Shown piece after piece: positions 3,768-54,024 of a stretch of DNA of 64,000 bases. The notes under the pieces are model-generated. The model was not told the origin of the DNA, did not search any database, and saw nothing but the letters and a program-made list of their open reading frames with translations. This DNA comes from Streptomyces sp. DG2A-72 (GTDB lineage Bacteria > Actinomycetota > Actinomycetes > Streptomycetales > Streptomycetaceae), in contig NZ_JASTLC010000001.1 of assembly GCF_030499575.1 (NCBI RefSeq), positions 8,704,001 through 8,768,000 of the forward strand, read 5' to 3'. Positions within the stretch are counted from its first letter, which is position 1; every line of letters begins with the position of its first letter. A program made the position numbers and the translations under genes.

Positions 3768-6257
3768 ATGGACCGTGGCACCGAGAGGGATGTACCTCTC
3801 AGCCGCGGAGCTGAGGACGGCGCGGCGGAGCCCGCCGCTGCCGGACGTATCCCCCTGGCCGTGGTCGTCGTGGACCGTGACGGTCTGGTGTCGCACTGGA
3901 GCACGGGCGCACGGCGGCTGTTCGGCGCCGCCAAGGAGGACGCGATCGGCCGTCCCGCGCTCGACCTGCTCCCCGTCTCCGGCGCCCTCCCCGAGGAGGA
4001 CGACGTCACCCTGTACGGGGCCCGTGCGGCGGCGTACGACGGACTCGGACCCGATCTCGAATCCTCCCTCGACGGGCGGCTGTCCTACCCCGCCTCGGGC
4101 CGCGCCCGCCTCGCGGTGGCCACGGACGAGCGGGCGGACGTCCTGTGGTGGGCGTACCCCCTGGTGGGCCCGGGACGGGAGAAGCTGCTGGTGCTGGCGG
4201 CCGACGCGGCGGGCCTGCACCACGACGACGAGGACGCGGTCTTCGAGCGGATCGCCCCCGGCTTCGCCCTGCACACCGACTTCCCCGGCGCCGAGGATCT
4301 CGCCCGCCGGCTCCCGGAGATCCTGCCCAGCATGAGCGTCGGCGAGGGCGCCCGGATCGTCGCGCAGATCCTTGAACTGGGCTATCCCGTCCTGGAGTTC
4401 AGCCAGAACGACCGGGTGCCTGTCACGCCCGACTGGGGTGTGCCCCGGCGGGCCGAGCGCAAGGCGCGCCGCGAGCGGGCGGCACGGGCGCGGGCCGAAG
4501 GTCTGCCGGTGCCGAAGGAGTTCGCGGACGAGGTCGAGGACCTCGAGTACACCGCCGTACGCGAGCGCCTGGAGTTCCTCAACGAGGTCAGCGGTCGCAT
4601 CGGCACCTCGCTCGACCTGGCGAAGACCATCGTCGAGGTCAGCCGGGCCGTGGTGCCCCGCTTCACCGATGTCGCCGGCACCTATCTGCGGGAACAGGTC
4701 GTCGCAGGCGAGGGGTTCCCGGACGGTGTGCCGGACACGACGACCATGTGGCACCGGGTCGCCCTTGAGCACACCGACGAACCGGGCCGCTGGGACGACG
4801 TGGTACCCGTCGGCGAGGCCATGCCCTTCCCGGCGCACACCCCGTTCTTCCAGTGCATGACCAGCGGAGAGCCCGTCCTCGTGCCGCGCATCAGCGAGCA
4901 GATGGGGCACGCCATCGCCTCGCAGTTCGAGAAGCGCGACATCCGGCCGCTGATCACCGGCCGCTCCATGCTGGTCGTACCCCTGAAGGCCCGCAATGTG
5001 GTCCTCGGCTTCATGATCCTGCTGCGCCACCCCGAGCGTGTCGAGTTCAACGACATGGACCGGGTCACCGGCGCCGAACTCGCCGCCCGCGCGGGCCTCG
5101 TGCTCGACAACGCACGCATGTACACCTACCAGGAGAGCGTCGCCGAGACCCTCCAGGACAGCATGCTGCCGCACATCCCGCCGCGCATGGCGGGCTGCGA
5201 CATCGCCACCCGCTATCTGCCGGGCACCCTGCTCGGCCGGGTCGGCGGCGACTGGTTCGACTCGGTGAAGCTGCCCGGCGCCCGCACCGCCCTCGTCGTC
5301 GGCGACGTCATGGGCCACGGCCTCAACTCGGCCGCGATGATGGGCCAGTTGCGTACGGCCGTCCAGACCATGGCCGCCCTCGACCTGCCGCCCGCCCAGC
5401 TGCTGCGCAACCTCGACGACCTCGCCCAGCGCCTCGGCGACACCTACCTCGCGACCTGTCTGTACGCCGTCTACGACCCGATCGCGAGCGAACTGCACAT
5501 CGCCAACGCGGGCCACATCCCGCCCGTGCTGGTCCGTGCCGAGGACGGGCACAGCGAACTGCTCGACCTGCCGACCGGTGCGCCGATCGGCGTCGGCGGG
5601 GTGCCCTTCGAGGCGGTACGCGTGCGCGTGGAGCCCGGCGACCGGCTGGTGATGTGCACCGACGGCCTGGTCGAGGTGCGCGGCGAGGACATCGGCGTAG
5701 GACTCGCGACCCTGTGCGCGTCGGCCGCCCACCCGGCAGCCTCCATGGACGACGCCTGCGACACCATCATCCGCGCCCTCGCTGTGACATTTTCAGAAGC
5801 GGGCCGCGGTGGCCGCAAGGACGACGTGGCTCTGCTGATGGCCCGCCTGAACGGCATCGAGCCCGACGACGTGGCCGAATGGCGGCTCGCCCTCGACCCG
5901 CACGAAGTCGGCCGGGCGCGTGCCGCGGTCCGCGAACAGCTCCACGACTGGGGGCTCGCCAAGCTCGCAGACCCCACAGCGCTGATGGTCAGTGAGCTGG
6001 TCACCAATGCCGTACGGCACTCCCACAGCCGCCCGATCGAGCTGCGCCTCGTGCGCGGGGACACCCTGCTGTGCGAGGTGGACGACGACGACCACGAGCT
6101 GCCGACCCTGCTGAACACGGGCCCGGGCGACGAGTTCGGGCGCGGTCTGCGCGTGGTCAGCACGCTCGCCCGGGAGTGGGGCACCAGCCGGACCAAGGCC
6201 GGCAAGACCGTCTGGTTCGAACTGACGTTGCCACGTGCTCCGCTGGGGACGCGGTAA
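3768..6257 (+). CDS. PAS-GAF-SpoIIE phosphatase-HATPase signalling protein
   Basis: 829 residues, soluble. Domains in order: PAS-like segment (about 28-90), a linker, a GAF domain (about 265-450), a PP2C/SpoIIE Ser/Thr phosphatase (about 470-695) and a C-terminal GHKL anti-sigma-type ATPase (about 700-825). Metal-binding motifs are GGDWFD (493-498), GDVMGHG (512-518), CTDGL (630-634) and the RKDD end motif near 683-686; the ATPase N-box is SELVTNAVRHS (742-752). Family members dephosphorylate anti-sigma antagonists of the SpoIIAA/RsbV type, while the RsbW-like domain can phosphorylate them or bind sigma. It therefore probably feeds a partner-switching pathway; whether the SigB/F-type sigma factor at 39.7 kb is its target is unknown. 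Confidence 0.92.
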   Translation: MDRGTERDVPLSRGAEDGAAEPAAAGRIPLAVVVVDRDGLVSHWSTGARRLFGAAKEDAIGRPALDLLPVSGALPEEDDVTLYGARAAAYDGLGPDLESSLDGRLSYPASGRARLAVATDERADVLWWAYPLVGPGREKLLVLAADAAGLHHDDEDAVFERIAPGFALHTDFPGAEDLARRLPEILPSMSVGEGARIVAQILELGYPVLEFSQNDRVPVTPDWGVPRRAERKARRERAARARAEGLPVPKEFADEVEDLEYTAVRERLEFLNEVSGRIGTSLDLAKTIVEVSRAVVPRFTDVAGTYLREQVVAGEGFPDGVPDTTTMWHRVALEHTDEPGRWDDVVPVGEAMPFPAHTPFFQCMTSGEPVLVPRISEQMGHAIASQFEKRDIRPLITGRSMLVVPLKARNVVLGFMILLRHPERVEFNDMDRVTGAELAARAGLVLDNARMYTYQESVAETLQDSMLPHIPPRMAGCDIATRYLPGTLLGRVGGDWFDSVKLPGARTALVVGDVMGHGLNSAAMMGQLRTAVQTMAALDLPPAQLLRNLDDLAQRLGDTYLATCLYAVYDPIASELHIANAGHIPPVLVRAEDGHSELLDLPTGAPIGVGGVPFEAVRVRVEPGDRLVMCTDGLVEVRGEDIGVGLATLCASAAHPAASMDDACDTIIRALAVTFSEAGRGGRKDDVALLMARLNGIEPDDVAEWRLALDPHEVGRARAAVREQLHDWGLAKLADPTALMVSELVTNAVRHSHSRPIELRLVRGDTLLCEVDDDDHELPTLLNTGPGDEFGRGLRVVSTLAREWGTSRTKAGKTVWFELTLPRAPLGTR

Positions 6258-6262
6258 TTCAC

Positions 6263-6339
6263 CTGCGGGCCGGTGGGGGCTGGTCGCGCCCACGCGGCGG
6301 AGCCGCATATCGATACAGCCCCGCGCCCCTTCGGGGCGC
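6263..6339 (+). repeat. Dispersed intergenic repeat, long form (copy A1)
   Basis: About 77 bases just after the SpoIIE-type gene, with GGCTGGTCGCGC on the left, a GCGGCGGAGCCGC hairpin in the middle and GCGCCCCTTCGGGGCGC on the right. It nearly matches 37148-37226 (inverted) and 42607-42684. The right-hand hairpin may act as a transcription terminator. Confidence 0.85.
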
Positions 6340-8782: not shown

Positions 8783-9616
8783 ATGAAGATCCTCATCAGC
8801 GCCGACATGGAGGGCGCGACGGGCGTCACCTGGCCGGCCGATGTGCTGCCGGGGACGCCGCAGTGGGAGCGGTGCCGGTCGATGTTCACCTCGGATGTGA
8901 ACGCCGCCGTGCTGGGCTTCTTCGACGGCGGCGCGGACGACGTGCTCATCAACGAAGCGCACTGGACGATGCGCAATCTGCTCCTCGAACGGCTCGACGA
9001 GCGGGCGGAGATGCTCACCGGGCGGCACAAGTCCCTCTCCATGGTGGAGGGCGTGCAGTACGGCGACGTGGACGGCATCGCGTTCGTCGGCTATCACGCG
9101 GGCGCCGGCATGGAGGGCGTCCTCGCCCACACCTACCTCGCCAACTCCATCACCGGGGTGTGGGTCAACGACGTACGGGCGAGCGAGGGGCTGCTCAACG
9201 CGCACGTGGTCGCCGAGTACGGGGTGCCCGTCGTCCTCGTCACCGGCGACGACGTGGCCTGCGAGGACGCGCTGGGATACGCCCCGCAGGCGCTGAAGGT
9301 CGCCGTCAAGGACCATGTGTCGCGGTACGCGGCCGTGTGCCGTACGCCGGCCAGGACGGCCTCCGAGATCCGGGCCGCGGCCAAGGAGGCGGCGGCGCTG
9401 GCGGTGCGTCACGAACCCGTCGTCGGGGGGCCGTTCACCGTGGCCCTGGAGTTCGATGCCGAGCACCTGGCGATGGCGGCCACCGTCGTGCCGGGTGTGG
9501 AGCGGATCGGGGAGCGGAAGGTGGCGTACACCAGCGACACCATGTATGAGGGGGTCCGTACCTTCAAGGCGGTCACCACGATCGTCTCGGCCGCGGTGGA
9601 GGAGCAGTATGGCTGA
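8783..9616 (+). CDS. M55-family D-aminopeptidase (DppA-like)
   Basis: 277 residues, cytoplasmic. It starts MKILISADMEG, the family N-terminus in which Asp8 and Glu10 bind the paired zinc ions. Further conserved stretches are NEAHWTMRN, GYHAGAG and NAHVVAEYGVPVVLVTGDD. DppA-type enzymes release N-terminal D-amino acids from small peptides such as D-Ala-D-Ala. The stop codon overlaps the next gene by 8 bases, so it is the first gene of a coupled peptidase operon; the partners suggest salvage of peptidoglycan-derived peptides. Confidence 0.92.
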   Translation: MKILISADMEGATGVTWPADVLPGTPQWERCRSMFTSDVNAAVLGFFDGGADDVLINEAHWTMRNLLLERLDERAEMLTGRHKSLSMVEGVQYGDVDGIAFVGYHAGAGMEGVLAHTYLANSITGVWVNDVRASEGLLNAHVVAEYGVPVVLVTGDDVACEDALGYAPQALKVAVKDHVSRYAAVCRTPARTASEIRAAAKEAAALAVRHEPVVGGPFTVALEFDAEHLAMAATVVPGVERIGERKVAYTSDTMYEGVRTFKAVTTIVSAAVEEQYG

Positions 9617-10913
9617 CCAGCAGGCGCTGGACGAGGTCGTCCGGTTCACGTCGGACCTCATCCGCATCGACACCACCAACCGCGGAGGTGGCGACTGCCA
9701 GGAGCGGCCCGCCGCCGAGTACGCGGCGGAGCGGCTGGCCGGGGCGGGCCTGGAGCCGACGCTGCTGGAGCGCACCCAGGGCCGTACGAACGTGGTCGCC
9801 CGGATCGAGGGCGCGGACCCGTCCGCGGACGCGCTCCTCGTCCACGGTCATCTGGACGTCGTACCCGCCGAAGCCGCCGACTGGAGCGTGCACCCGTTTT
9901 CCGGGGAGATCCGCGACGGCGTCGTCTGGGGACGCGGCGCGGTCGACATGAAGAACATGGACGCGATGATCCTCGCGGTCGTGCGCGCCTGGGCGCGCGA
10001 GGGCGTACGGCCCCGACGGGACCTCGTCATCGCGTTCACCGCCGACGAGGAGGCGAGTGCGGAGGACGGTTCCGGGTTTCTCGCCGATCGGCACCGGGGG
10101 CTCTTCGAGGGCTGCACCGAGGGCGTCAGTGAGTCGGGGGCGTTCACCTTCCACGACGGCGGCGGACGCCAGATCTACCCCATCGCCGCAGGTGAGCGCG
10201 GTACCGGCTGGCTGAAGCTCACCGCGCGCGGGCGGGCCGGACACGGCTCCAAGGTGAACCGGGAGAACGCGGTGACGAGCCTCGCCGCCGCCATCGCCCG
10301 GATCGGCGGCCACGAGTGGCCGCTCCGGCTGACCCCGACCGTCAGCGCGGCCCTCACCGAACTCGCCGCGCTCTACGGTATCGAGGCCGACCTCGACGAC
10401 GTGGACGGGCTGCTGACGAAGCTCGGCCCGGCGGCCGGGCTGGTCGAGGCCACCGTACGCAACAGCGCCAACCCGACGATGCTGGAGGCCGGTTACAAGG
10501 TCAATGTCATCCCCGGGGAGGCCGTCGCGTACGTCGACGGGCGCTATCTCTTCGGCGCCGAGGACGAGTTCCGCGCGACGCTGGACCGGCTCAGCGGACC
10601 GGACGTGGACTGGGAGTTCCACCATCGCGAGGTGGCCCTCCAGGCGCCGGTCGACTCGCCGACGTACGCGCGGATGCGTGCCGCGGTCGAGGAGTTCGCG
10701 CCCGAGGGGCACGTGGTGCCGTACTGCATGTCCGGCGGCACGGACGCCAAGCAGTTCTCCCGGCTCGGCATCACCGGCTACGGCTTCACTCCGCTGAAGC
10801 TCCCCGAGGGCTTCGACTACCAGGCCCTCTTCCACGGAGTCGACGAGCGGGTCCCGGTCGAGGCGCTGCACTTCGGCGTCCACGTCCTGGACCGCTTCCT
10901 GCGGACGGCCTAG
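9609..10913 (+). CDS. M20-family metallopeptidase
   Basis: 434 residues. Metal and catalytic motifs: LLVHGHLDVVPA with His81 and Asp83, WGRGAVDMKN with the bridging Asp113, and ADEEAS with the catalytic Glu pair; HGSKVNREN begins the lid/dimerisation segment, and a late CMSGGTDAKQ supplies the final metal region. M20 enzymes cleave dipeptides or acyl-amino acids. The ATG overlaps the M55 gene by 8 bases, so translation is coupled. Exact substrate unknown. Confidence 0.92.
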   Translation: MADQQALDEVVRFTSDLIRIDTTNRGGGDCQERPAAEYAAERLAGAGLEPTLLERTQGRTNVVARIEGADPSADALLVHGHLDVVPAEAADWSVHPFSGEIRDGVVWGRGAVDMKNMDAMILAVVRAWAREGVRPRRDLVIAFTADEEASAEDGSGFLADRHRGLFEGCTEGVSESGAFTFHDGGGRQIYPIAAGERGTGWLKLTARGRAGHGSKVNRENAVTSLAAAIARIGGHEWPLRLTPTVSAALTELAALYGIEADLDDVDGLLTKLGPAAGLVEATVRNSANPTMLEAGYKVNVIPGEAVAYVDGRYLFGAEDEFRATLDRLSGPDVDWEFHHREVALQAPVDSPTYARMRAAVEEFAPEGHVVPYCMSGGTDAKQFSRLGITGYGFTPLKLPEGFDYQALFHGVDERVPVEALHFGVHVLDRFLRTA

Positions 10914-10917
10914 CGGC

Positions 10918-12909
10918 ATGGAGCTGGCATTCGGCTCATGGCCGTCCCCGATCGACGCGGCTCTCGCCGCCGCGCACGACGGGCATCCCGAGTACGTCGG
11001 CTTCGTCGGCGACGAGGCCTGGTGGACCGAGCCACGGCCCACCGAGGGCGGCCGGCGCACGCTCGTCAGGCGCCGCGCCGACGGCACCGCGGAGTCCGGG
11101 CTGCCCGCGCCGTGGAATGTGCGCAGTCGCGTCATCGAGTACGGCGGACAGCCCTGGACCGGTGTCGCCGGACCGCTCGTCGTGTTCGTGAACTTCGCCG
11201 ACCAGCGGCTGTACCGGTACGAGCCCGGCACCGATCCGCGTCCGCTGACGCCGGCCGGACCACGCTGGGCCGAGCCGCAGTTGCGCCTGGACGTCGGTGA
11301 AGTGTGGTGCGTGATGGAGGAGTTCACCGGCGACGCGCCCACGGACGTACGCCGGGTGCTCGCCGCGGTGCCGCTGGACGGCTCGGCGGCCGGGGACCGG
11401 GACGCCGTACGCGAACTGACCGACGACCGGCACCGGTTCGTGACCGGACCGAGGATCTCGCCCGACGGGCGGCGTGCGGCCTGGCTCGCCTGGGACCATC
11501 CGCGGATGCCGTGGGACGGCACGGAACTCGTCGTCGCCGAGGTGGACGGTGTCTTCCGTGCGGCGCGCACGGTCGCCGGCGGCCCTGAGGAGTCCATCGC
11601 GCAGGTGGACTGGGCGCCCGACGGCTCCCTGCTGTACGCGAGCGATCGCTCCGGCTGGTGGAACCTCTACCGCGACGGCCGACCGCTCTGCCCGCGCGAG
11701 GAGGAGTTCGGCGGCCCGCTCTGGAAGCTCGGGCACCGCTGGTTCGCCCCGCTGGAGAGCGGACTGATCGCCGTCGTGCACGGACGCGGCGCCACCGCGC
11801 TCGGCATCCTCGACCCGGAGACCGGCGAGGTCGTCGACGCCGCCGGTCCCTGGACCGAGTTCGCGCCCACGCTCGCGGCGCACGGCGAGCGAAGCGAGAT
11901 GGGGGTCCCCCCGCCCGAAGGGTGGGGGAGGATTGTCGCCGTCGGAGCCAGCCCGCGCACCGCGTACGAGGTGGTGGAACTGGACGCCCGTACCGGACGG
12001 GCCCGGGTGATCGGCGCCGGGCACAAGGACTCGGTCGACCCCGCGTACTACCCCGAACCGCACATCCGCACCTTCACCGGCCCGGCCGGACGCGAGATCC
12101 ACGCGCACATCTACCCGCCCCACCACCCCGCCTGCGTCGCACCCGGCGACGAGCTGCCGCCGTATGTCGTCTGGGCGCACGGCGGGCCCACCAGCAGGGC
12201 ACCGCTCGTGCTCGACCTGGCGATCGCCTACTTCACCTCGCGCGGCATCGGGGTCGCCGAGGTCAACTACGGCGGCTCGACCGGATACGGGCGGGCCTAC
12301 CGGGACCGGCTGCGTGAGCAGTGGGGCGTGGTCGACGTCGAGGACTGCGCGGCCGTCGCGCTGGCCCTCGCCGACGAGGGCACCGCGGACCGTGACCGGC
12401 TCGCCGTCCGGGGCGGCAGCGCGGGCGGCTGGACGGCCGCCGCGTCGCTGGCCACGACGGATGTCTACGCCTGCGGCACGATCATCTACCCGATCCTCGA
12501 CCTGACCGGCTGGGGATCGGGGGAGACCCACGACTTCGAGTCCCAGTACCTGGAGTCGCTGGTCGGGCCGCTCGCCGAGGTGCCCGCGCGGTACGTGGTG
12601 GGGGCACCTCCCAGGCCCTTAAGGCACTGGGGGAGCTCGCCCGCCGAGCACGCCGAACGGATCACCGCGCCCTTCCTGCTGTTGCAGGGCCTGGACGACG
12701 TGATCTGCCCGCCCGCGCAATGCGAGCGCTTCCTGGCCCGCATGGAAGGCCGACGCGTGCCGCACGCCTACATCGCCTTCGAGGGGGAGGGACATGGATT
12801 CCGCCGGGCCGACACCATGATCCGCGCCCTGGAGGCCGAACTCTCCCTGTACGCACAGGCCTTCGGGCTGCACCCGCCCGACATTCCCACCCTGGAGCTC
12901 ACCCATTGA
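10918..12909 (+). CDS. S9-family prolyl oligopeptidase/acylaminoacyl peptidase with two repeat-derived insertions
   Basis: 663 residues: an N-terminal beta-propeller (about 1-385) and a C-terminal alpha/beta hydrolase. The triad is Ser501 in GGSAGG, Asp593 or 594 in QGLDDV and His626 in GEGHGF. The ATG lies 4 bases after the M20 stop. Two stretches look foreign: residues 323-340 (GERSEMGVPPPEGWG), encoded by a dispersed repeat, and residues 560-574, encoded by another GC-rich hairpin repeat that includes TTA at 12619-12621 (codon 568). The frame stays open through both. TTA is the only such in-frame codon I found in the window, so translation may depend on the bldA tRNA. Confidence 0.92.
   Translation: MELAFGSWPSPIDAALAAAHDGHPEYVGFVGDEAWWTEPRPTEGGRRTLVRRRADGTAESGLPAPWNVRSRVIEYGGQPWTGVAGPLVVFVNFADQRLYRYEPGTDPRPLTPAGPRWAEPQLRLDVGEVWCVMEEFTGDAPTDVRRVLAAVPLDGSAAGDRDAVRELTDDRHRFVTGPRISPDGRRAAWLAWDHPRMPWDGTELVVAEVDGVFRAARTVAGGPEESIAQVDWAPDGSLLYASDRSGWWNLYRDGRPLCPREEEFGGPLWKLGHRWFAPLESGLIAVVHGRGATALGILDPETGEVVDAAGPWTEFAPTLAAHGERSEMGVPPPEGWGRIVAVGASPRTAYEVVELDARTGRARVIGAGHKDSVDPAYYPEPHIRTFTGPAGREIHAHIYPPHHPACVAPGDELPPYVVWAHGGPTSRAPLVLDLAIAYFTSRGIGVAEVNYGGSTGYGRAYRDRLREQWGVVDVEDCAAVALALADEGTADRDRLAVRGGSAGGWTAAASLATTDVYACGTIIYPILDLTGWGSGETHDFESQYLESLVGPLAEVPARYVVGAPPRPLRHWGSSPAEHAERITAPFLLLQGLDDVICPPAQCERFLARMEGRRVPHAYIAFEGEGHGFRRADTMIRALEAELSLYAQAFGLHPPDIPTLELTH
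11886..11930 (+). repeat. Dispersed hairpin repeat inside the S9 peptidase gene (copy C1)
   Basis: A GC-rich repeat starting CGAGCGAAGCGAGATGG and ending with the stem CCCGCCC-GAA-GGGTGGG. A near-copy lies at 17196-17236. It is in frame here and encodes part of the propeller domain. Confidence 0.75.
12597..12637 (+). repeat. Second hairpin repeat inside the S9 peptidase gene, carrying a TTA codon
   Basis: A palindromic stretch with CACCTCCCAG on the left and CTGGGGGAG on the right around CCCTTAAGG. It encodes residues 560-574 and introduces TTA (Leu) at 12619. Similar palindromes are typically intergenic in Streptomyces, which suggests insertion into the gene. Confidence 0.6.
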
Positions 12910-12910
12910 G

Positions 12911-12940
12911 CCCTCCCCCAGCTGAGGCAGGGGGATTCCT
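12911..12940. terminator. Hairpin downstream of the S9 peptidase gene
   Basis: Directly after the stop codon, CCCTCCCCC and GGCAGGGGG can pair around AGCTGA. It may end or attenuate the M55-M20-S9 transcript before the LD-carboxypeptidase gene 134 bases on. Confidence 0.4.
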
Positions 12941-13043: not shown

Positions 13044-13976
13044 GTGAACCCGGTGAAGCAACTGGATCGTCCGCCCCGGCTCGCCCCCGGCGCCCGCGTG
13101 GCCGTCGTCGCGCCCAGCGGACCGGTGGCCGAGGAACGACTGCAGGCCGGACTCGACGTGTTGCGCGGCTGGGACCTCGAACCGGTCGTCGCACCCCATG
13201 TCCTCGACCGGCACGGCGAGCTCGACTACCTCGCCGGCACCGACGCGCACCGGGCCGCCGATCTGCAGAACGCCTGGTGCGATCCGTCCGTCGACGCCGT
13301 GCTGTGCGCCCGCGGCGGCTACGGCGTGCTGCGGATGGTCGACCTGTTGGACTGGGACACGATGCGCACGGCCGGGCCGAAGGTGTTCGTGGGCTTCAGC
13401 GACATCACCGCGCTGCACGAGGCGTTCGCCACGCGGCTGGGGCTGGTCACGCTGTACGGGCCGACGGCCGCGGGCGTCGACTTCACCAAGAACACCCGGG
13501 CCCAGGAGCACTTGAGGGCGACCCTCTTCGCCCCCGAGACGGTCCGCACCATCGAGTCGCGGGGCAGCGCTCTGGTCCCCGGGCGGGCCCGGGGTGTCAC
13601 TTACGGAGGATGCCTCTGCCTCCTCGTGTCCGACCTCGGCTCACCCCACGCCCGCACCGATGCCCGTGGCGGACTGCTGATGATCGAGGACGTCGGCGAG
13701 CAGCCGTACCGGATCGACCGGATGCTGACCCAACTCCTGCGCGCGGAACGGCTCGACGGCGTCACCGGGATCGCGCTCGGCTCGTGGAACGAATGCGGTG
13801 CCTACGACGCACTGCGCGCCGTGTTCGCCGACCGGCTCGGCGGACTGGGCATCCCGGTGGTGGAGGAGTTCGGGTTCGGCCACTGTGACGGGGCGTTGAC
13901 CATCCCCTTCGGACTGGAGGCCGAACTCGACGCCGACAACGGCACGTTGACGCTCGACGAACCCGCTCTGCGCTGA
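13044..13976 (+). CDS. S66-family LD-carboxypeptidase
   Basis: 310 residues. The nucleophile is Ser119 in VGFSDITAL; ARGGYGVLR (89-97) precedes it as usual; IEDVGEQPYRIDRML (214-228) and FGHCDG (278-283) hold the catalytic Glu and His280. LD-carboxypeptidases remove the terminal D-Ala from murein tetrapeptides during recycling. The GTG at 13044 has GGAG 6 bases upstream. There is no signal peptide, consistent with a cytoplasmic recycling role. It lies 134 bases after the S9 gene, so it may be in the operon or have its own promoter. Confidence 0.93.
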   Translation: MNPVKQLDRPPRLAPGARVAVVAPSGPVAEERLQAGLDVLRGWDLEPVVAPHVLDRHGELDYLAGTDAHRAADLQNAWCDPSVDAVLCARGGYGVLRMVDLLDWDTMRTAGPKVFVGFSDITALHEAFATRLGLVTLYGPTAAGVDFTKNTRAQEHLRATLFAPETVRTIESRGSALVPGRARGVTYGGCLCLLVSDLGSPHARTDARGGLLMIEDVGEQPYRIDRMLTQLLRAERLDGVTGIALGSWNECGAYDALRAVFADRLGGLGIPVVEEFGFGHCDGALTIPFGLEAELDADNGTLTLDEPALR

Positions 13977-37147: not shown

Positions 37148-37226
37148 CCCCTTCAGGGGCGCGGGGCTGTATCAATATGCGGCTCCGCCGCGTGGGCGCG
37201 ACCAGCCCCCACCGACCCGCGGATGA
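37148..37226 (-). repeat. Dispersed intergenic repeat, long form (copy A2, inverted)
   Basis: The same element as at 6263-6339, in the opposite orientation, between the CBS and DUF2795-like genes. The end CCCCTTCAGGGGCGC forms a hairpin. The rest of the 226-base gap shows nothing else I recognise. Confidence 0.85.
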
Positions 37227-37250
37227 ATCACCGCGCTCCCAGCGGAGCGC

Positions 37251-42568: not shown

Positions 42569-42606
42569 GTGCTCCGCGGGAAGTGGGGTGATTGGCCGTC
42601 GATCAT

Positions 42607-42684
42607 CCGCGGGCCGGTGGGGGCTGGTCGCGCCCACGCGGCGGAGCCGCATAGTGATACAGCCCAGCGCCCCTTCGGGGCGCT
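42607..42684 (+). repeat. Dispersed intergenic repeat, long form (copy A3)
   Basis: Nearly identical to 6263-6339 and in the same orientation, 39 bases after the GAF-ANTAR stop. Confidence 0.85.
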
Positions 42685-42827: not shown

Positions 42828-43694
42828 ATGCGCCGCACCGTCCGTGCCCTGTCCGTCGCCGCTCTGGCCGGGATTCTTCCGGTCGTCGCCGCCGCGGCCG
42901 CCTTCGCGGATCCGGCCGCGGAGGTCAGCCCGGGACAGGTGGCCCCGGGCCGCAGCATCACCGTGTCGGTCTCCTGCGACCCCCTTGAGGGTCCCGCACC
43001 AGCTGCCGTCGACGCCACATCGATGGCCTTCGAAGAGGGCACCGTCCAGTTGCGCAGGGTCGCCGGCAACGAGGACGAGGCATCCGGGCCCGCCTACTCC
43101 GGCACGGCCCGTATCGCTCCGGCCGAGGACCTGGAGGACGACGAGGGTGTCGGCCCCGACACCGCGTGGACGGTCGACGGCACCTGCCCGGCCGCTCCCG
43201 GTGGGGAGGGCACGCCGTGGAGCGCCACGTTCACGGTGGCCCGCGGTGGCAGCAACGGCCCGTGCGCCGACCCGCTCGACCCGGCCTGCGCCACCAGCGA
43301 GCCCTGCGTCGATCCGCTGGACACGTCGTGCGCCACCAGCAAGCCCTGCCCGGTGCCGACCGCCACCCCCTGCCACACGAGCAAGCCTTGCCCGGAGCCG
43401 ACTGCCACGTCCTGCCAGACCAGCAAGCCCTGCCCCGACCCGACTCCCACCGCCTGCCACACCGGTCAGCCGTGTCCCTCGCCGGACCCTTCGTGCCACA
43501 CGAGCAAGCCCTGTCCCGACCCGCACGACACGACCTGCGGCGGTGCGGTGATCGAGCACGGCGTGCATGCCGGTGACGGCGGCGCCTTCAACGACTCGGT
43601 GCCCGCCCTGGTGGCCGGGGGTGTGCTGATCGTGGGCGCGTTCGGCGGTGCCGTGTACCGGCTGTGGCGCAAGGCACCCGCCGAGGACGGCTGA
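42828..43694 (+). CDS. Exported, membrane-anchored protein with Cys-Pro repeats
   Basis: 288 residues. A signal peptide (1-28, ending AFADP) is followed by a globular part (about 30-140) with one early Cys pair (50, 120). Residues 146-237 hold 14 cysteines spaced alternately x7 and x5 in a 14-residue repeat of the form SKPCPxPTxTxCHT. A single C-terminal span (about 256-278) and an Arg/Lys stop follow, with no LPXTG sorting motif. The regular Cys/Pro array looks like an extracellular stalk stabilised by disulfides. I do not recognise the family. GAAGGAG precedes the ATG by 8 bases. Confidence 0.82.
   Translation: MRRTVRALSVAALAGILPVVAAAAAFADPAAEVSPGQVAPGRSITVSVSCDPLEGPAPAAVDATSMAFEEGTVQLRRVAGNEDEASGPAYSGTARIAPAEDLEDDEGVGPDTAWTVDGTCPAAPGGEGTPWSATFTVARGGSNGPCADPLDPACATSEPCVDPLDTSCATSKPCPVPTATPCHTSKPCPEPTATSCQTSKPCPDPTPTACHTGQPCPSPDPSCHTSKPCPDPHDTTCGGAVIEHGVHAGDGGAFNDSVPALVAGGVLIVGAFGGAVYRLWRKAPAEDG
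43263..43540 (+). repeat. About 42-bp coding repeats (Cys-Pro repeats)
   Basis: Six to seven diverged units, each with AGCAAGCCCTGCCC or a variant, encode the Cys-Pro repeats of the surface protein. Degeneracy at third positions suggests selection on the protein rather than recent copying. Confidence 0.8.
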
Positions 43695-53917: not shown

Positions 53918-53983
53918 CGCTTCGCTGAGGGGTGCGGGGAGGGCAGGTGCCGCCGCTGGGTCCGTTGTCGGCTGCGGCGCCGT

Positions 53984-54024
53984 CGTGGCTTGTCGCGCAG
54001 TTCCCCGCGCCCCTTAGGGCGTTG
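53984..54024 (+). repeat. Dispersed intergenic repeat, short form (copy B4)
   Basis: GTGGCTTGTCGCGCAGTTCC followed by CCGCGCCCCTTAGGGCG, between osmC-like and dnaK genes. The rest of this 243-base gap holds the dnaK promoter. Confidence 0.85.

Follow-up and report, generated by a model that had tools for sequence, protein, structure and literature searches.

Comparison of orthologous sequences gives good support to the view that a short palindromic repeat inserted in frame into an S9 peptidase gene of Streptomyces sp. DG2A-72 and brought this gene its only TTA codon. With a probability of roughly 0.72, we propose that this hairpin insertion gave the gene its TTA and made the enzyme dependent on the bldA tRNA, by which UUA is read in Streptomyces, the codon being a by-product of where the repeat landed. 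The gene lies in a stretch of 64,000 nt, the window, to which all coordinates refer:

10918..12909, + strand, S9 (prolyl oligopeptidase family) aminopeptidase gene, 663 aa (Pfam PF00326, E=8.1e-42)
12599..12636, + strand, inserted palindromic (hairpin) repeat, core 12600-12635, net gain of 33 nt or 11 aa, residues 561-571
12619..12621, + strand, TTA leucine codon 568, inside the repeat loop CTTAAG

A palindromic repeat carries the TTA codon of an S9 peptidase gene

By its sequence, the 10918-12909 product is a member of the S9 family. The Peptidase_S9 domain covers residues 435-650, and S501, D594 and H626, which we take to be the catalytic Ser (in GxSxGG), Asp and His, were invariant across 34 aligned orthologues. 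A phmmer search matched residues 4-661, nearly the full protein, to PDB entry 3azo ('Aminopeptidase'; 968.7 bits); 3azp and 3azq are entries for the same aminopeptidase, presumably the puromycin hydrolase of Streptomyces morookaense. In the alignment, 3azo is gapped at this insertion and at a second one in the gene, and the location of the TTA-bearing insert on the structure is taken solely from that gap, as an AlphaFold model based on 34 orthologues was set aside for its mean pLDDT of 62.4 and its values of 24-43 in the ten-residue blocks starting at residue 501.

Three further peptidase genes surround the S9 gene in this genome and in nearly all of the 80 named loci compared:

8783..9616, + strand, Peptidase_M55 D-aminopeptidase, upstream (Pfam E=2.2e-90; beside S9 in 80/80 named loci)
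9609..10913, + strand, Peptidase_M20, upstream (Pfam E=7.8e-33; beside S9 in 80/80 named loci)
13044..13976, + strand, Peptidase_S66 LD-carboxypeptidase, downstream (Pfam E=4.5e-40; beside S9 in 79/80 named loci; the start at 13044 is our choice)

The stop codon of the M20 gene lies 4 nt ahead of the S9 start, and the set looks like a cluster for the breakdown of wall peptides or dipeptides.

The core of the S9 repeat is 36 nt long and in frame (GGGGGCACCTCCCAGGCCCTTAAGGCACTGGGGGAG), and is translated as GAPPRPLRHWG. Its palindromic unit, GGGGGCACCTCCCA...TGGGGGAG at 12600-12635, had one match in the window and none in 100 shuffles, and in the predicted RNA fold the five tip bases around UUAA were unpaired. 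The original prediction had assigned a palindromic repeat to residues 560-574; a palindromic insertion is indeed there, although the net insert comprises residues 561-571 and the wider interval corresponds to the whole element with its edges. The TTA at 12619 is codon 568 of the S9 reading frame, as had been stated, and lies within the repeat; it is the sole TTA among the 663 codons and lies late in the gene. The further claim that the window holds no other in-frame TTA also stands in a codon-usage scan of 51 coding-like ORFs (overlapping false ones included) of at least 60 codons that lie entirely within the window. The scan returned a second TTA-holding ORF, with the codon at 54014, but this position is 5' of the ATG of an apparent DnaK and is therefore probably not coding. 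The 54014 TTA belongs to a different dispersed repeat (53970-54024) with a CCCCTTAGGGCG tip, upstream of the gene read by eye as dnaK. At gathering scores, Rfam had no match in the window.

The insert and its TTA are confined to two sister genomes

Among the matches listed, a first orthologue set of 30 loci comprised the gene of this genome (L001), that of a sister genome, G022 (L002), with the same insert and TTA and a protein 95% identical, one locus ending ahead of the site (L025), which was dropped, and 27 further orthologues covering the site, all 27 of which were free of insert and TTA. A second set was made up of 80 orthologues out of 572 named relatives, with identity reaching 85% in the best segment; here too the 33-nt insert was absent, as was any TTA within the matched stretch of the gene. 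As six sequences were common to both sets, the two carriers stand against 101 distinct further orthologues. No repeat-free TTA, which would have spoken against delivery of the codon by the repeat, turned up when the matched parts of all 101 were checked for one. In agreement, a pattern specific for the junctions of the S9 insert matched 2 of 295 genomes of the genus, this one and G022.

At the insertion site, relatives mostly read Arg-Tyr-x-(Glu/Asp)-Arg-(Ser/Ala)-Pro, to which the carriers add 33 bases. Because the element is longer than this net gain, about 4-6 target bases were replaced, as judged by eye. The element is identical in the two carriers (36/36 bases). Between them the S9 gene shows a dN of 0.028, a dS of 0.173 and a dN/dS of 0.160, the eighth lowest ratio among the 45 closest pairs (7 of 44 others are lower; the pairs share sequences). 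Judged by these rates, ordinary constraint has continued to act on the gene after the two carriers split.

The repeat belongs to a dispersed hairpin family

The repeat had also been suspected to be of a mobile type, and two lines of evidence agree with this: it belongs to a dispersed family of Streptomyces hairpins of about 37-39 nt, and members are present in one and absent from the other sister genome at two other genes. Arms enclosing a loop of 2-30 nt occurred in 12 of 37 genomes including this one, and the variant with TTA in its loop in 26 of 295 genomes of the genus (reversed-pattern control, 0). A wider pattern found 6 copies in this genome and 13, 41 and 30 in three others, with controls at 0. 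These search patterns fix both arms and so favour intact copies. In the 81 of 111 unique copies that fit the typed arm, the variable arm pair was C/G in 43, G/C in 38 and mixed in none; the remaining 30 were excluded from this count, and as the 81 copies represent 21 distinct sequences, the count is not one of independent events. At the sequence level, two matched arm states without mismatches mark a stem that has been kept.

Empty sites were found for the S9 gene and for aromatic amino acid lyase, acyl-CoA dehydrogenase and MocR-type genes. The sister genome carries a copy in its aromatic amino acid lyase gene, whose counterpart here is an empty site; conversely, an acyl-CoA dehydrogenase gene is filled in this genome and empty in the sister. 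About 6-7 bases were replaced at these two sites, with net gains of 30 and 36, both divisible by three. Three comparisons of filled with empty sites, done by eye and for S9 using the empty sites of more distant relatives, revealed replacement of about 4-7 nt and no target-site duplication, which argues against a MITE.

Coding signal on both flanks and on one strand was seen for 32 of the 111 copies: 24 were in frame, 6 changed the frame and 2 brought an in-frame stop. Of the rest, 53 were intergenic or of unclear status, and in 26 the coding signal was confined to one flank or lay on opposite strands. These in-gene counts are approximate, as the coding score was trained on S9 orthologues (377/378 training windows, which is not an independent test) and applied at a threshold of 0.15 on both flanks. 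The eight copies scored as stop or frame change (L065, L215, L067, L076, L177, L203, L213 and L038, with L177 from this genome) are possible gene disruptions. In frame in unrelated genes and absent from their orthologues, the family behaves, on sequence criteria, as a protein-coding palindromic element.

Reading frame decides whether the repeat delivers TTA

Read in its six frames, the element yields TTA in two, a stop codon in two others and neither in the last two. Thus two of the four stop-free frames hold TTA, and whether a tolerated insertion brings the codon would be an even lottery. Across genes, 19 of the 24 in-frame copies lacked TTA (two of the 24 being the same S9 insertion). Seven in-frame copies had a TTAA loop; with L050 and L053 counted once, as they represent a single insertion, these are six independent insertions. 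TTA was read in 4 of 6, or in 3 of 5 when L217 is left out. Compared with the expected half, 4 of 6 fits chance, and six insertions are too few to speak of enrichment or depletion of TTA frames among tolerated copies.

A second gene documents the same process. A MocR-type regulator with GntR and aminotransferase domains in genome G092 carries an 11-aa insert of the family just behind its DNA-binding domain, with TTA at codon 103 of the matched part. Twelve homologous loci were fetched and three partial ones left unaligned; all 8 aligned homologues lacked both insert and TTA. Delivery of TTA by the repeat is therefore recurrent. Another copy, L210, also has an in-frame TTA; besides itself, the 26 genomes searched held just distant homologues (35-38%) and no empty site. 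The TTA-bearing copy of L217 sits in an AraC-type gene just ahead of the DNA-binding domain, but a frame change upstream means that this gene may be a pseudogene or contain a sequence error. AdpA is similar in build to the product of this AraC-type gene. AdpA has a conserved TTA between its two domains (PMC4255298).

The UUA codon probably makes the full-length enzyme depend on bldA

A tRNA-Leu gene with the anticodon taa (UAA) was located in this genome with one search pattern (G000:C1:4124574). With an in-frame TTA in a constrained gene and a UUA-reading tRNA encoded in the same genome, the S9 gene is, on its sequence, a candidate member of the TTA/bldA genes. The UUA-reading tRNA is the product of bldA, and adpA contains TTA in all streptomycetes analysed in PMC4255298. 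According to PMC10327506, genomes have 51-505 TTA ORFs, of which 92% have one TTA, and most TTA codons are poorly conserved among orthologues. How strictly such codons depend on bldA appears to vary in one Streptomyces ghanaensis bldA mutant, as described in PMC3814723: MoeE5, with two UUA codons, was not detected, while an adpA-gusA fusion was still active, about 15-fold weaker. Weighing this block against this leak, we put the chance that the full-length S9 enzyme is dependent on bldA, a plausible consequence of the insertion, at about two in three, and that of adaptive control at below one in ten.

The proposed sequence of events is as follows. As the comparison of orthologues shows, a hairpin of about 37-39 nt inserted in frame between the codons of the putative catalytic Ser and those of the catalytic Asp and His, replacing about 4-6 nt; the simplest assumption places this event in the ancestor shared by this species and its sister. 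Its loop CTTAAG fell into the frame that reads TTA, giving the mRNA the gene's only UUA. Since UUA is read by the bldA tRNA, the full-length enzyme should now need that tRNA, and a ribosome stalled at codon 568 would leave a chain without the catalytic Asp and His. The frame statistics point to a codon that is a by-product of the landing place and not a selected switch.

The insertion may instead be a neutral addition without effect on expression, if misreading or basal amounts of bldA tRNA suffice for a UUA this late in the gene. Such a reading would account for the unchanged constraint on the S9 gene and for in-frame copies that are tolerated in the same way when they lack TTA, and leaky decoding of UUA is on record (PMC3814723). 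The absence of MoeE5 from the same bldA mutant, however, is evidence that UUA can block (PMC3814723), and we regard neutrality as possible, though less than an even bet by some distance. At the opposite extreme, the TTA may have been kept since late expression of the peptidase is useful. The perfect identity of the element in both species would be compatible with such adaptive developmental control, and the conserved cluster of D-aminopeptidase, M20, S9 and LD-carboxypeptidase might act in the turnover of wall peptides, a role in keeping with development. Yet half of the open frames give TTA anyway, retention is expected without selection at about 6% divergence and a dS of 0.17, the codon recurs in none of the other 101 orthologues (matched part), and its late position, 568 of 663, is at odds with the lean of streptomycete TTA codons to gene starts (PMC4255298). 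This analysis provides no support for adaptive control, which we consider very improbable.

It could also be that the hairpin in the mRNA matters and not the codon, whether through pausing, through stability or through a polar effect on the S66 gene downstream. The matched changes that kept the variable arm pair speak for a role of the stem, and the S9 repeat site folds at -35.3 kcal/mol. However, this energy corresponds to a z of just -1.45 and was equalled by 16 of 200 shuffles, and other in-gene copies are tolerated, so that an effect of the hairpin itself appears improbable. By-product TTA delivery followed by bldA dependence thus remains our preferred explanation.

Relation to known elements

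Short palindromes lying in frame in unrelated genes and adding a peptide to their products are known as Rickettsia palindromic elements (RPE; PMC10969869). By described size, the Streptomyces element is not an RPE proper: RPE measure about 150 bp (PMC10969869), compared with 37-39 nt here, and the Streptomyces loop can supply a regulatory rare codon. Like the TTA/bldA genes described in PMC10327506, the S9 gene has one, poorly conserved TTA; in contrast to them, its origin from a repeat is visible and its position is late, while horizontal transfer was suggested as the source there (PMC10327506).

Dispersed short palindromes are also a feature of REP elements with RAYT (Y1) transposases. The REP/RAYT class inserts without target duplication, as does the Streptomyces element. 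A Y1 transposase is nevertheless not supported as the mover, as carriers G009 and G018 gave no Y1_Tnp match, and four other carriers have ten Y1_Tnp loci, nine of them with no copy of the element within about 1.5 kb. At the tenth (G299:C33, L260 1572-1826), a copy lies within the remains of a Y1 gene, beside an ORF that we take to be TnpB-like; since this Y1 gene was already broken up, we read the copy as having hit a target and not as belonging to a mover.

In-frame palindromes (RPE) and TTA genes are thus already known, and it is their combination, a repeat loop supplying a developmental codon, that we did not find reported: the titles and abstract openings that searches of open-licence PMC text brought up contained no report of a repeat-borne TTA or of this repeat. 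Streptomyces TTA codons turn over fast between species and their sources are mostly guesswork; in the present case, one origin can be followed in two unrelated genes for which sequences with and without the insert are available. Should the codon act, one insertion of a dispersed repeat would suffice to bring a gene under a developmental tRNA. If it is inert, the same loci show that TTA can be carried freely without regulatory meaning, and caution is due in using TTA as a bldA marker. More speculatively, and we hold this only as a tentative idea, the hairpin family may be a portable UUA cassette, which in its CTTAAG-loop form offers an even chance of a bldA-read codon in each open frame and has repeatedly brought genes, including one for a transcription regulator, into the range of the developmental tRNA. 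If true, this would be a route into the bldA regulon that requires no point mutation.

Further palindromic inserts and repeats

The S9 gene collects palindromic inserts. Two more palindromes lie in or directly beside it in this genome:

11885..11931, + strand, second, related palindromic insertion in the S9 gene, core 11901-11930, in frame, net gain of 39 nt or 13 aa after residue 324
12911..12934, + strand, palindrome immediately 3' of the S9 stop codon, with an arm of the TGGGGGAG type (one match in the window, none in 100 shuffles)

The other palindromic repeat that had been noted in this gene, at 11885-11931, is thus confirmed; it too was inserted in frame, and adds 13 residues. This 39-nt insertion in the propeller part is found at the identical site in Streptomyces sp. 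LUP47B (L086) and is absent from its sister, L088; both group apart from the two carriers of the TTA-bearing insert. Repeated insertion at one site, loss and gene transfer are alternative explanations of the shared insert. The insertion site has GAGCG in common with the end of the element. In S. regalis (L100), a copy of the first-insertion type lies in reverse orientation in the S9 gene, at the position of L001 residue 551, and S. regalis and S. djakartensis (L132) have another in-frame, palindrome-like insert near S9 residue 51.

Elsewhere in the window, five 45-nt copies, mostly 42 nt apart, occupy 43287-43538; translated, they would give a peptide repeat rich in Cys, Pro and Thr. A repeat of 72-94 nt occurs in three copies (6237-6339, 37155-37248 and 42603-42683) that are 93-96% alike and lie in two orientations.
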